Of a stretch of DNA of 64,000 nt, positions 35,734 to 41,762 are shown one piece after another. Numbering within the stretch: position 1 is the first letter of the stretch; each line of letters starts with the position of its first letter. The stretch covers positions 1 to 64,000 of the forward strand of contig NZ_QASO01000098.1 in the NCBI RefSeq assembly GCF_003052605.1, written 5' to 3'. This stretch comes from Ectopseudomonas oleovorans. GTDB taxonomy: Bacteria > Pseudomonadota > Gammaproteobacteria > Pseudomonadales > Pseudomonadaceae. The position numbers were made by a program, and so were the translations under genes. Under the pieces are notes generated by a model. The model made no database searches. It saw only the letters and a list, made by a program, of their open reading frames with translations, and was not told the DNA's origin.

Positions 35734-36459
35734 TCAGTCCGTCAGGTAACGCTGCTCGATACGCTGGTATTCGCCGGACTCACGCAGCAGGCGTAGCCCC
35801 TCGTCGAAGCGCCGACGTTGTTCATCCCGGCGAAAGCCGACGCGGTATGACGTCGGCGGAAATATCTCGAACCAGGCCAGTGGCTGGGTGACGTCGACCT
35901 GGTCGTTCACCTCACGATCCAGGTAGCGGATGATGCGCTTGTCGCCCACCACCACATCGGTGCGACCGCTGTAGAGCAGGCGGTTGCGATTGATCTGCAG
36001 CGCCTCCTCGCGGTAGCGCGGGTTGTTCATGGCCATGCGCTCGAACTCAGGGCCCATGAGCAGTCGTGCACGCTGGAAGGCACTGACCGCGTACTGGCCG
36101 AGGTCGGAAATCTGCTCGATGTGATAACCGCGTTTGGCCAATGCCACTGCCACGTTCTGATAATGGATGTAGACGTCCGAATAGAAGGCCTGCACGCCAC
36201 TGCGCTCATGAGTGGTGGTGATGGCGTCGATCTCACCACGGCGCAGCATCAGGTGCAGACGCTCCATGGGCGCGTAATAGGCGGTCAACTCAAAACCGGC
36301 ATTGCGCGCAGCACGCTCCACCAGCTCATATTCCAGGCCGCGCGGCTCACCTTCGTAGACATAAGGCGGCTTGTGCGTACCAAAGCCGACATGCAGCACC
36401 TCGGCCGCAACCGTTGCGCTCAGGCACGCCAGCATCAATCCCAGCCACCATCTGACCAT
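35734..36459 (-). CDS. Periplasmic solute-binding protein, SBP_bac_3 type
   Basis: 241 aa. Signal peptide to about residue 19 (ATVAA). Then the amino-acid-binding-protein fold: VGFGTHKPPYVYEGEPRGLEYELVERAARNAGFEL, RGEIDAITTTHERSGVQAFYSDVYI, GRTDVVVGDKRII. No transporter genes adjoin it, as for many orphan members in pseudomonads. Ligand unknown. Confidence 0.82.
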   Translation of the reverse strand: MVRWWLGLMLACLSATVAAEVLHVGFGTHKPPYVYEGEPRGLEYELVERAARNAGFELTAYYAPMERLHLMLRRGEIDAITTTHERSGVQAFYSDVYIHYQNVAVALAKRGYHIEQISDLGQYAVSAFQRARLLMGPEFERMAMNNPRYREEALQINRNRLLYSGRTDVVVGDKRIIRYLDREVNDQVDVTQPLAWFEIFPPTSYRVGFRRDEQRRRFDEGLRLLRESGEYQRIEQRYLTD

Positions 36460-37831: not shown

Positions 37832-38077
37832 ATGGCCAATACCCCGCTGACTCGCCGGACTGTCACTGATGGAAACGCCGCAGCCCCCGCAAAGGTAGCC
37901 ACCCTGGCCGATATCGCCGACAACCTGCTGGCGCCGCCCGCGCTGCCGGGGCACAGCGTTAGCGGCGAGCAGTATCTGTATTTCACCGAACGCGATATCA
38001 AGCGCATCCTCGATAACCTCGATGGCCTGCGCAACATGGTGTTCCCGCTGGGCGAGCCGCTGGACGAAGGCGAGTGA
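37832..38077 (+). CDS. Small protein encoded directly upstream of the tubulin-like gene
   Basis: 81 aa from ATG at 37832 (MANTPLTRRTVTDGNAAAP); an in-frame ATG at 37808 overlaps the likely promoter, since TAGAAT at about 37799 could be its -10. No signal peptide or TM. The C-terminal 45 residues (SGEQYLYFTERDIKRILDNLDGLRNMVFPLG) look like a small helical domain. The stop TGA at 38075 overlaps a GTG at 38074 (GTGA), the classical sign of translational coupling with the next gene. Unrecognised; likely a partner of the tubulin-like protein. Confidence 0.65.
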   Translation: MANTPLTRRTVTDGNAAAPAKVATLADIADNLLAPPALPGHSVSGEQYLYFTERDIKRILDNLDGLRNMVFPLGEPLDEGE

Positions 38078-40007
38078 AGCCGCATTCAGCAGTTTCCCTC
38101 TGTGTACCTGATCGGCCTCGGCCGCTGCGGCTCGAACATCGCACTGGACGTCCCCTCCCTGGTCTACAACGCGCGCCAGTTCTATCTGGAAGAGTTTCAC
38201 AGCGAAGCCACTGCCACCATCGAGCAGGCCTCACGCCCCAGTCGCTGGATTCGCAGCAATCTATTGCGCGCGCCGCCCGGTATTCCTGATCGAGCCGCTG
38301 GTGATGCTCGGCGACCTGGACAAGGACATCGCCGGGCGCATCCGCTTCTCGCGCAAAGGCGAAATGAGCGGTTTTCTCGACGATTACAGCAAGATGAAGA
38401 TCATGGACCTGTCCGAGGTGCATGCCGGCGGTGCCGGCAACACGCCGATCCTCGTGGCCAAGATCATCCTCAACAAGGACACCCAGCGCTTCTCCAACGA
38501 AGACTGGAAGTTCATCCACAGCTACCTGATCGACTCCTGCGGGATCAAGGCCAACCAGTCGCGCCTGTACTTCTATATCTTCAGCGCTGGCGGCGGCACC
38601 GGCTCGGGCATGGCCTCGGAGTTCGGCCTGGCGCAGCAGTTCGCCTACATGAGCAAGACCTTCGACAGCAAGACGCCGGACGATGGCGAGGCCGAACGCG
38701 AACGTGGTTTCGTCTTCGAACCGATCTTCACCAGCGGCATCTGCATCCTGCCGAACATTTCCGACCAGCGCAGCGAGATGTCCGAAGCCCTGCATATCAA
38801 TGCCGGCCGCCTGCTGTGCAAGTACCTGGCCGAGGCATGGGACTTCTCCTACAACTTCGACAACGAGCAGAACAGCGCTGAAAACGTGATGCGCCGCATC
38901 CGCCCGTGGAACGCGATGATGCTGATCTCCAACGACATCATGCGTTAAGCCAAGGAAAGCGGTGACGGCAGCATCCACAACATAGACGTGACCGCCATGG
39001 AGCGCCACGCCAACCAGTACATCTCGCAGCAGATCTTCAACATCCTCACCGCCCAGGCGGTGACCAGCGACTACGACCAGAACTACTTGCGCCGCGCCGG
39101 CATCGACATCGGCGAAACCATCCGCCTCGACGCCAACGACCTGTTCATGAGCCTGGCCGGCCCGGTGGCCGTGGCTTACGCCGAATCCGTGGTGCCCGAA
39201 CAGCACACACAACTATCGGAAAAATTCCGTGTACTGGACAAGGAACAAAGCCCGCCACGGCTGAACATCAACGACCTGTTCTTCCGCTCCATCGACCTGC
39301 CGCACTTCAACAAGGTCACCCAGGCCATCGAAGGCATCAGCCTGCTGCCGATCGAGTCCAAGCGCTATCGCCAGGCGCTGGAGCAGTACAAATCCAGTGG
39401 CTACGACGCTACGGAGCTGAGCGAACTGCATTTCTTCAAGAACTGCTCCTCGGTGCTGTCCATCGTCTCGCTGTCCAAGGACTACAAGCTGTCCTACATG
39501 GATCTGAACCGCCTCAAGACCCACCTCAACAACCTGTTCCCCAACACCACGCTCAAGCGCTACGCGCTGGTGATTGGCGCTTCGGCCAACCTCTCGCTGA
39601 CCACCCTGATCGTCAAGAGCCCGTGCCTATCGGACGACTTCCTGACCCTGATCGTCGCCTACATCAAGTGCTGCTTCGCCCGCGACCAGTACCGCTTCGA
39701 CGACAGCCTGGACGACGCCATACTCGACTTCATCGTCGCCGAGCGCTTCGATGAGGCCAGGCTCGACGCCATGCTCAACGAGCACCAAGACCCGGCGAAG
39801 ATCCTCGACACCAACTGGTATGCGATCAAACCGATGTACGAGAAGAAGTAGCGCGAGCTGATCCACGACACGGAGAAATTCGTTTCGATCAATGACATCC
39901 GACTGACACGCGAAAGCGTCAAACAGGCGATCAAGTACCTGCGCGAAATCTATCGCCACCACATCGGCAAGACCCGGGTGATCTCGCTCAACGATTACGG
40001 CAAGTAG
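38074..40007 (+). pseudogene. Tubulin/FtsZ-superfamily protein gene, interrupted
   Basis: Conceptual product about 640 aa. Near the N-terminus YLIGLGRCGSNIALDV is a nucleotide-binding T1-type loop; FSAGGGTGSGMA (GGGTGSG at 38589-38609) is the tubulin/FtsZ T4 signature; NIDVTAMER (from 38979) sits where a T7 NxD loop with a catalytic acid would be. Most like the Tubulin_2 (tubulin-like) family rather than FtsZ itself. Interruptions: a frame change between GTG 38074 and about 38102, another near 38262-38280, TAA at 38946-38948 and TAG at 39849-39851. Coding continues cleanly across each, ending NDYGK, TAG at 40005. Either recently inactivated or badly sequenced. Confidence 0.8.
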
Positions 40008-40089: not shown

Positions 40090-40875
40090 TCAGGTGCACT
40101 GCTGCCACTGCACCAACCAGCCCAGGCTGGCCTGCGTGCCCTCCTCGCCCGGCTTGTATTCGGCGCCCAGCCAGCCGCTGTAACCGCTGCCACGTAAAGC
40201 ACCGAGCAGCGCGGGGAACGCCAGCTCGCCGGTACCTGGCGCGCCGCGCCCCGGCACGTCGGCGAACTGCACATGACCGATGCGCCCGGCCAGCAAGCGC
40301 ATTCCTGCGGCCACGTCCAGCTCCTGACGCGCCATATGGTAGAGGTCGTACTGTGCGGCCAGATTCGGGTGATCCACTGCGCGCAGCAGCGTATCGAGAT
40401 GCTCCGGCGTATTGATCAAGAAACCCGGCATATCGATCGGGTTAATCGCCTCCACCAACACGCGGATGCCCAACGTCGCGAAGGTCTCGGCGCTCTTGCG
40501 CAGGTTGGCGGCCAGGCAATCCAGCGCCTGCTCGCGGCTCACGCCTTCGGCCAGGCGGCCGGGCAGCACATTGATGCAGGCCGGGCGCGCCATGGCGGCG
40601 TAGGTCAGCGCCTCCTGCAGCGCCGCGTCGAACGCGTCCTGGCGCGCCGGCACGCTGGCCAGGCCGGGGCCGCCGCTCATCAGATCGCCTGCCGGCAGGT
40701 TGATCAGCACCAGCGGCAGCGCGGTCAACTCCAGCACTTCTTTCAGAGCGACGGCCGGCAACTCATAGGGGAACTGAATTTCCACGCCATCGAAACCCGC
40801 CGTCATCGCCGCCAGCACGCGCTCGCGCAACGGCAGTTCGGTGAACAGCATGGACAGGTTGGCAGCGATCTTCAT
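40090..40875 (-). CDS. hyi: Hydroxypyruvate isomerase family protein (Hyi/OtnI-like)
   Basis: 261-aa TIM barrel of the xylose-isomerase-like family: KIAANLSMLFTELPLRERVLAAMTAGFDGVEIQFPYE, INVLPGRLAEG, VLVEAINPIDMPGF, AAQYDLYHMARQE, HVQFADVPGRGAPGTGEL. Glu and His residues at these places bind the metal and act as base. Interconverts hydroxypyruvate and tartronate semialdehyde, or 2-oxo-tetronates in OtnI. Start at 40875 overlaps the preceding stop as ATGA, so it is coupled to the reductase gene. Confidence 0.85.
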   Translation of the reverse strand: MKIAANLSMLFTELPLRERVLAAMTAGFDGVEIQFPYELPAVALKEVLELTALPLVLINLPAGDLMSGGPGLASVPARQDAFDAALQEALTYAAMARPACINVLPGRLAEGVSREQALDCLAANLRKSAETFATLGIRVLVEAINPIDMPGFLINTPEHLDTLLRAVDHPNLAAQYDLYHMARQELDVAAGMRLLAGRIGHVQFADVPGRGAPGTGELAFPALLGALRGSGYSGWLGAEYKPGEEGTQASLGWLVQWQQCT

Positions 40876-41762
40876 GGGCATTGCTCCCGCAGCATTTCCA
40901 CAAGGGTGGCAGGGTCGCGCTCAAGAAAGCCCTGGCTGCCGTGCAGGCGCATCAACTGCGCGGCCAAGCCGCTCATGGGCGTGGCGCTGCCCTGCTCACG
41001 GGATAGTTTGACCGCCGTATCTAGGTCCTTGAGCAGCGTGCGTACATGCCACTTGATCGGTTCGAACTGGCTGGCGGCCATCTGCGGCGCAAGGATCTGC
41101 AGCGGCTTGGAGTCGGCGAAACCACCGGCCAGCGCCGGGGCGATCAGGCTGGCGTCGACGCCGGAGCGCTCGGCCAGCGCCACCACTTCGGCGATCACCA
41201 GCGCGTTGCAGGCCACGATCATCTGGTTGCACACCTTGGTCACCTGCCCGGCGCCCACCTCGCCCATGCGCGTCAGGCGCTGGCCCAGATGCGCCAGCAC
41301 CGGGCGCACACGCTCCACATCCTCCTCCCGGCCGCCAGCCATGATCGCCAGCGTGCCGGCCTCGGCACCCGGCGTACCACCGGAAACCGGCGCATCCACC
41401 CAGCGCATGCCAGTACGTGCCTCCAGCTCGGCGGCCATCTCACGGGTGGCCGCCGGCTCCAGGCTGGAAAAGTCCACCAGCAACTGCCCCGGCCGCGCAC
41501 CCTCGACGATCCCGCCCGGGCCGAACACCACCTCACGCACCACCTCGGTATTGGCCAGGCAGAGCATCACCACATTGGCATCGCGACACAGCTCGGCAGG
41601 GTTCTCCACGCGATGCGCGCCCTGCGCCAACAGCGGCGCACATTTGTCCGGCGTGCGGTTCCACAGGGTCAGCGGGTAGCCTGCAGCGAGCAGGCGGCGG
41701 GTCATCGGCAGGCCCATCAAACCAATCCCGGCGAAGGCCAGGGCGGGAAGCGTTGCGGTCAT
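40872..41762 (-). CDS. Beta-hydroxyacid dehydrogenase (tartronate semialdehyde reductase / L-threonate dehydrogenase family)
   Basis: 296 aa. Rossmann start FAGIGLMGLPMTRRLLAAGYPLTLWNRT binds NAD(P)H; DAPVSGGTPGAEAGTL is the substrate-binding signature; GAGQVTKVCNQMIVACN contains the catalytic Lys; KDLDTAVKLS follows. Same family as GlxR and LtnD. With the coupled isomerase it suggests a glyoxylate-to-glycerate or threonate route, but glyoxylate carboligase (gcl), normally adjacent, is missing here, so the substrate is open. Confidence 0.82.
   Translation of the reverse strand: MTATLPALAFAGIGLMGLPMTRRLLAAGYPLTLWNRTPDKCAPLLAQGAHRVENPAELCRDANVVMLCLANTEVVREVVFGPGGIVEGARPGQLLVDFSSLEPAATREMAAELEARTGMRWVDAPVSGGTPGAEAGTLAIMAGGREEDVERVRPVLAHLGQRLTRMGEVGAGQVTKVCNQMIVACNALVIAEVVALAERSGVDASLIAPALAGGFADSKPLQILAPQMAASQFEPIKWHVRTLLKDLDTAVKLSREQGSATPMSGLAAQLMRLHGSQGFLERDPATLVEMLREQCP

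Follow-up and report, generated by a model that had tools for sequence, protein, structure and literature searches.

A decayed tubulin-like gene, very probably of the FtsZl2 type, in Ectopseudomonas oleovorans, and its intact relatives in Pseudomonas

The window analysed here is a stretch of 64,000 nucleotides from Ectopseudomonas oleovorans (contig NZ_QASO01000098.1, positions 1 to 64,000 of the forward strand). Alignment with intact relatives, each encoded by a single open reading frame, showed that positions 37869-40007 on the forward strand are the pseudogene of one protein of ~722 amino acids. When its interruptions were read through, the translation was 94% identical to an intact relative over residues 143-722 and 87% identical over residues 3-140, and the resemblance is therefore greater than chance. 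At the DNA level, the gene is 94.4% identical to its two nearest intact relatives. A first-pass annotation, made from the letters alone, had described a recently broken tubulin/FtsZ-type gene of which intact relatives might exist, and such relatives were found: the nearest intact copies are single open reading frames of ~722 amino acids. The locus contains the following features.

37869..40007, + strand: tubulin-like pseudogene, very probably of the FtsZl2 type, from the former start codon to the stop (alignment to intact single-ORF relatives)
37832..38077, + strand: the "81-aa gene" of the first-pass annotation, a leader plus the N-terminal part of the same protein and not a gene; its end is a premature TGA
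37874..37875, + strand: 10-bp out-of-frame deletion, directly after the homologous start codon at 37869 (against 5/5 intact relatives)
38075..38077, + strand: premature TGA in the gene's own frame (frame reading; intact relatives read straight through)
38114..38137, + strand: T1 nucleotide-binding loop GLGRCGSN (top FtsZ T1 match in the family profile; invariant in 32/32 relatives)
38276..38277, + strand: 14-bp out-of-frame deletion (against 5/5 intact relatives)
38427..38447, + strand: T3-like loop GGAGNTP, GGAGNAP in relatives (top FtsZ T3 match in the family profile)
38454..38455, + strand: 9-bp in-frame deletion (against 5/5 intact relatives)
38589..38609, + strand: T4 tubulin/FtsZ signature GGGTGSG (FtsZ T4 match in the family profile; invariant in 32/32 relatives)
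38925..38936, + strand: T6-like ISND, assigned by eye (invariant in 32/32 relatives; third-best place for FtsZ T6, not above chance)
38946..38948, + strand: premature TAA at a codon where relatives encode Tyr (comparison with relatives)
39123..39140, + strand: T7-like acidic loop RLDAND, assigned by eye (invariant in 32/32 relatives; FtsZ profile not above chance)
39141..40004, + strand: C-terminal region without a match outside the family (family and PDB searches; 276-303 aa in 4/4 intact members)
39849..39851, + strand: premature TAG at a codon where relatives encode Tyr (comparison with relatives)

Compared with five intact relatives, the window gene is interrupted by three stops and has lost sequence in three deletions, two of them out of frame (10 and 14 bp) and one in frame (9 bp); all five relatives are free of these deletions. 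The first-pass annotation had rightly seen that the gene is disrupted, and had miscounted the disruptions as four. The TAA at 38946 and the TAG at 39849 are both present, and the frame change it placed near 38270 corresponds to the 14-bp deletion after 38276. No frame change exists at 38095, since the frame read from 37808 runs through the "81-aa ORF" to the TGA at 38075-38077 and continues as the same frame through GLGRCGSN; the interruption is the in-frame TGA, which the relatives read through. The 10-bp deletion after the start and the 9-bp deletion after 38454 had been overlooked. The GLGRCGSN, GGGTGSG and acidic T7-like motifs that it named all lie in the gene, at 38114-38137, 38589-38609 and 39123-39140.

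Intact members of the family have three parts: an N-terminal block, conserved in the relatives as YLYFTE.D..RILDNLDGLR ahead of the T1 loop; a domain with the T1, T3 and T4 loops and extra inserts; and a C-terminal region of ~280-300 amino acids. The Pfam Tubulin (PF00091) and Tubulin_2 (PF13809) models both matched 9/9 members, which are related to each other and not independent. The profile search proposed with the first-pass annotation thus returned matches to tubulin families, all of them below threshold: PF00091 gave 13.9-21.7 bits against a cut-off of 33 (best E 2.7e-4 among the nine, the best for either model), and PF13809 gave 14.5-16.7 bits, in the proteins with tables examined, against a cut-off of 27 (best E 0.004). 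Since no Pfam, NCBIfam, PADLOC or PHROGs model passed its own cut-off for the scanned member, this widely conserved protein probably goes unnamed in standard annotation. A role as a defence system was considered and dropped, there being no PADLOC match.

Further evidence of superfamily membership came from a chain test, in which ten FtsZ segments were placed along the family profile with plain BLOSUM62 scoring and compared with 1000 column shuffles. The FtsZ T1, T3 and T4 segments were each top-placed at the expected block and in the right order. The whole chain scored 100.2 against a shuffle mean of 44.1 and maximum of 75.3 (0/1000; z = 7.1), a score to which the placement of FtsZ T6 at a C-terminal stretch (VVSIVSLPKDYKLS), and not at ISND, contributes. 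T1 and T3 alone scored 37.0 against 14.6 (0/1000 shuffles; z = 4.8), and the chain without T4, in which the T3 segment moves off its own block to the GGGTGSG block, scored 75.2 against 42.3 (0/1000 shuffles). The reversed family gave 71.0 for the whole chain, 29.6 for T1 and T3, and 54.0 without T4. This positive result is the second of two settings tried, the earlier one, with a sharper profile, having given no signal and left two motif strings unfound.

Beyond T4, the segments T5, T6, H7, T7 and two C-terminal ones scored 29.4 against 27.7, a value reached by 370/1000 shuffles. The T6- and T7-like motifs are nevertheless constant within the family: besides the 32 aligned relatives, ISND and RLDAND are invariant in 157/157 locus entries, which were picked by two other motifs and in which the same genomes are repeated. 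GGGTGSG is likewise invariant in 32/32 relatives picked by pattern blocks other than GGGTGSG itself. By eye, FtsZ's T7 sequence NVDFAD compares with RLDAND in the family, where the first T7 Asn of FtsZ is absent. The family resembles FtsZ in having the T1, T3 and T4 loops in order, and differs from it in length (~722 against ~400 amino acids), in the spacing of T1 and T4 (16 representatives have 162-169 residues from one to the other, and the 32 of 34 FtsZ proteins that could be measured have 87-92), and in showing no similarity to the FtsZ C-terminus above chance. In L058, the stretch NCSSVVSIVSLPKDYKLSYMDLNRLKTHLN...YALVIGAS (~535-591 of the intact protein) resembles by eye a strand-helix-strand of the FtsZ C-terminal domain, a likeness unsupported by the profile test.

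These observations bear on the possibility that the protein is not a tubulin relative at all, and that an unrelated nucleotide-binding protein converged on glycine-rich loops. Such a reading would fit the lack of any alignment above chance after T4, and also the behaviour of profiles built from bacterial FtsZ only, since both an HMM search and hhalign aligned the GGGTG motif alone; with hhalign, the reversed control scored 30.7, above the 27.2 of the family, and 12 unrelated families scored 11.4-21.6, one control family with 2 sequences being left out. A search of solved structures by sequence gave no convincing match (best E 0.22 and 0.4), and structure prediction, which the first-pass annotation had put forward as a check of the tubulin fold, did produce two AlphaFold models, both unusable, so that the fold was decided neither way: mean pLDDT was 31.8 for the full protein with 32 sequences and 32.0 for the GTPase part with 62, likely because the relatives in the alignment are too alike. 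Against convergence stand the correct order of T1, T3 and T4, the matches to two different Pfam tubulin models, and an independent HHpred comparison of the Pseudomonas protein PFL_1302 with PF00091, with E = 0.0033 (Makarova and Koonin, 2010; PMC2875224). We consider convergence improbable; the case for superfamily membership appears real but partial, consisting of T1, T3 and T4 in order and of nothing after T4.

PFL_1302, from P. fluorescens Pf-5, is the type member of FtsZl2, a proteobacterial family that was delineated by computer analysis (Makarova and Koonin, 2010) and found through the motif GGGTG(S/T)G; the HHpred match just mentioned comes from its description. In the sections of that paper devoted to FtsZl2, the family is described as having inserts between T1 and T4, the motifs T1, T4, T6 and T7 and helix H7, a C-terminal region of ~300 amino acids without relatives, no coiled coil and no gene association. 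The family studied here shares with this description its occurrence in Pseudomonas, the GGGTGSG signature, the T1 and T4 loops (with T6 and T7 by eye), the inserts between T1 and T4, a C-terminal region without relatives (276-303 amino acids, counted from the T7-like loop onwards, in 4/4 intact members measured), no common gene partners, and a host FtsZ encoded elsewhere; the window copy differs in being broken.

A process of elimination points the same way. In P. protegens FD6, P. fluorescens C2 and P. viridiflava p8.G8, the open frames longer than 100 amino acids that contain GGGTG[ST]G were FtsZ, recognised by eye, and the family gene, and nothing else; Pf-5 itself is now placed in P. protegens. 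Because the testable features agree and the motif-bearing frames are narrowed in this way, the family is very probably FtsZl2, the identification being made from the published description and not from the PFL_1302 sequence itself. Accordingly, we regard it as highly likely that the window locus is an FtsZl2-type pseudogene.

The gene neighbourhood was examined in 20 loci, and ten were compared again together with distant loci. Surroundings are common within groups of related genomes; by eye, the neighbours include a RapA-like helicase, an MFS transporter, hydroxypyruvate isomerase, tartronate-semialdehyde reductase and a branched-chain amino-acid ABC transporter. The distant loci L042, L043, L177, L178 and L179 had no neighbour common to all, L178 and L179, which belong to one genus, having several in common. 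No partner gene is common to the compared loci. Upstream of the gene, none of 12 promoter/operator patterns was frequent in 80 listed relatives, the greatest excess among these being an Anr-like pattern (2/80 against 0.0 expected). Large open reading frames near the gene (L178:5568-8630, L177:2056-4791 and L042:1185-3863) match each other and frames in L031 and L045 by BLAST, and look like signalling proteins, a common type.

The first-pass annotation had instead pointed to Tubulin_2, and a Tubulin_2/FtsZl1-type protein, as found in multi-component vWA membrane-remodelling operons, is an alternative to FtsZl2. The two share the GGGTGSG signature, presence in addition to FtsZ and a weak profile similarity, and PF13809 did match 9/9 members. 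These matches are sub-threshold (14.5-16.7 bits, cut-off 27), and in the window's own genome PF13809 found nothing at E <= 0.001. FtsZl1, as characterised in the corresponding part of the 2010 paper, has a long coiled coil, a helical C-terminus and an unidentifiable T6-H7 region, with vWA, OmpA, kinase and GTPase genes as neighbours (PMC2875224), whereas the loci compared here have no neighbour in common. Assignment to Tubulin_2/FtsZl1 is accordingly quite unlikely, and the published match is FtsZl2. A later superfamily study discusses Tubulin_2, and its main text contains neither "FtsZl" nor "Pseudomonas" (PMC9871819). No functional study of FtsZl2 or PFL_1302 was found in the open-access papers searched, among which the FtsZl2 names lead to the 2010 paper alone; two papers that combine "tubulin-like" with Pseudomonas were considered and set aside, as the term means FtsZ in the relevant passages of both.

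To evaluate selection, the window copy was compared with four relatives, and those codons were counted at which a single lineage stands apart from the rest. The window-specific changes comprised 22 missense, 3 stop and 21 synonymous codons, compared with 8 missense and 87 synonymous for the four intact relatives pooled (0:14, 2:19, 0:13 and 6:41; Fisher p = 5.5e-9, or p = 7.1e-8 without the stops). In six neighbouring genes, one of which lacks one relative, the window's own changes were 13:53, stops being absent (p = 2.2e-4 when compared with the pseudogene), although single genes vary, with 3:5 for the window in the neighbour at 40090-40881 and 20:27 for one relative in the gene at 35734-36459. 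Because of this excess of window-specific missense and stop changes over the intact relatives, the window gene is a true pseudogene that has lost selection, and not a product of sequencing error. A second family copy was not detected in the window's genome at E <= 0.001, where only these broken pieces match. FtsZ of this genome is encoded separately, at G000:C88, which bears out the earlier view of an accessory tubulin-type gene.

It had also been suggested that the stops might be sequencing errors and the system live. The sequence comes from a draft assembly of 143 contigs, and the window protein is still 94% identical to its relative over the last 580 residues, two points in favour of that reading; however, six separate lesions fall within one gene, among them deletions of 10, 14 and 9 bp, missense changes are far above those of the intact relatives, and the six compared neighbouring genes are without a stop. 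With three stops and relaxed substitutions added to the deletions, the lesions are those of a real pseudogene, and a live gene hidden by sequencing or assembly errors is very improbable. We think it hardly more credible that a functional fragment is still produced from the decayed gene, the open frame at 38301-38948 being one candidate source. Long uninterrupted stretches do remain, but relaxation of missense changes extends across the gene, and stops or changes of frame separate the start region, T1 and the later parts from one another.

The weakest proposal, an operon in which a separate 81-aa protein is translationally coupled to the tubulin-like gene, draws on the window alone, where the small frame ends in GTGA just as another frame opens, and has next to no credibility, as in 19/19 relatives both parts lie within one open frame with GGGTGSG, the GTG that overlaps GTGA opens a non-coding frame, and without the 10-bp deletion after the homologous start at 37869 the upstream ATG at 37832 would be out of frame with the gene. 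The leader part of 37832..38077 is thus in frame through a deletion, the remaining residues are the front end of the same protein, and the apparent second gene is a consequence of the lesions in the window copy; in none of the 19 relatives do these residues form a separate gene beside the tubulin-like one.

The intact protein is strongly conserved. The copy in genome G012 (L002/L031; L002:439-2607) is 96% identical to the window's 215-aa fragment, and those of P. sediminis, P. chengduensis, P. alcaliphila and P. toyotomiensis are 96-97% identical to the G012 protein. Identity is 79% or more across an alignment of 32 Pseudomonas-group members, and is 59-86% against the G012 protein for 16 representatives selected at a 90% identity threshold. 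The gene is under strong purifying selection in the relatives. With the 215-aa fragment as query, a match was found in 27/36 genomes of the genus (own included) and 1/21 others. The full protein matched 40/248 family genomes, namely 38/55 in the genus (own included; the 17 genus genomes without a match are listed, and the remaining rows are ordered by kinship) and 2 outside. When both queries were joined, the gene was present in 64/88 sampled species genomes of the genus, and 62 of these 64 had no stops in the match, the other two being the window's broken copy and G243.

Wider samples, each including the window's own genome, gave 23/390 matches for the order, 13 of them in genus g314, 2/369 for the class and 5/299 for the phylum; stops reported in some g314 matches are ordinary gene ends (11/13 loci examined). 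In a scan of named species genomes, at least 427 of at least 592 pattern matches were confirmed, and among the 80 matches listed, 78 were titled Pseudomonas. None of 108 pattern matches in viral contigs was confirmed as a family relative, and no relative was detected in 72,556 plasmid or 50,697 phage records; a mobile-element origin was accordingly rejected. TubZ and PhuZ, the tubulins of plasmids and phages, are likewise accessory proteins of the tubulin superfamily, from which the present family differs in its absence from the plasmid, phage and viral records searched.

The gene is sometimes lost, judging from two different relics together with the absences. In G243 (L049:9512-9832; G243:C1 around 2669435-2669735), residues 34-101 and 689-720 adjoin, an arrangement that marks this copy as an internal-deletion relic and would represent another stage of loss.

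What the intact protein does can be sketched from its motifs. It would bind GTP through T1-T4, and its subunits may join head to tail, by analogy with other members of the superfamily, with the acidic T7-like loop and its two invariant Asp residues predicted to complete the GTPase site of the next subunit; filament formation by intact members is a prediction to which we give about an even chance. Such a filament would work beside the FtsZ division ring and not in it, and the C-terminal region may provide contacts for which other families use partner proteins. A hydrophobic membrane segment was not clearly present in 4/4 members (top 19-residue Kyte-Doolittle mean 1.32-1.43). A minority of the sampled genus genomes lack the gene or carry a dead copy, so the cell can presumably dispense with the protein. 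Our tentative model, which we hold to be possible and somewhat less probable than its negation, is that FtsZl2 serves almost the whole genus Pseudomonas as an accessory tubulin and forms a partner-free filament, anchored or bundled by the C-terminal ~290 amino acids, for a condition-dependent task, so that some lineages discard the gene.

Taken alone, the window locus is a dead gene, ordinary and of minor importance, and the family is not new, FtsZl2 having been named in 2010. The window adds a natural loss of an FtsZl2-type gene. The intact family is a good target, apparently unstudied: a tubulin-type protein under strong purifying selection, yet one that some lineages do without, is easily tested in harmless laboratory strains.

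Members outside the main genus (L042, L043, L051, L164 and L165) are scattered and 59-78% identical to the G012 protein, and in genus g20 one genome carries the gene and three are listed without it. This scatter may reflect transfer or many losses.
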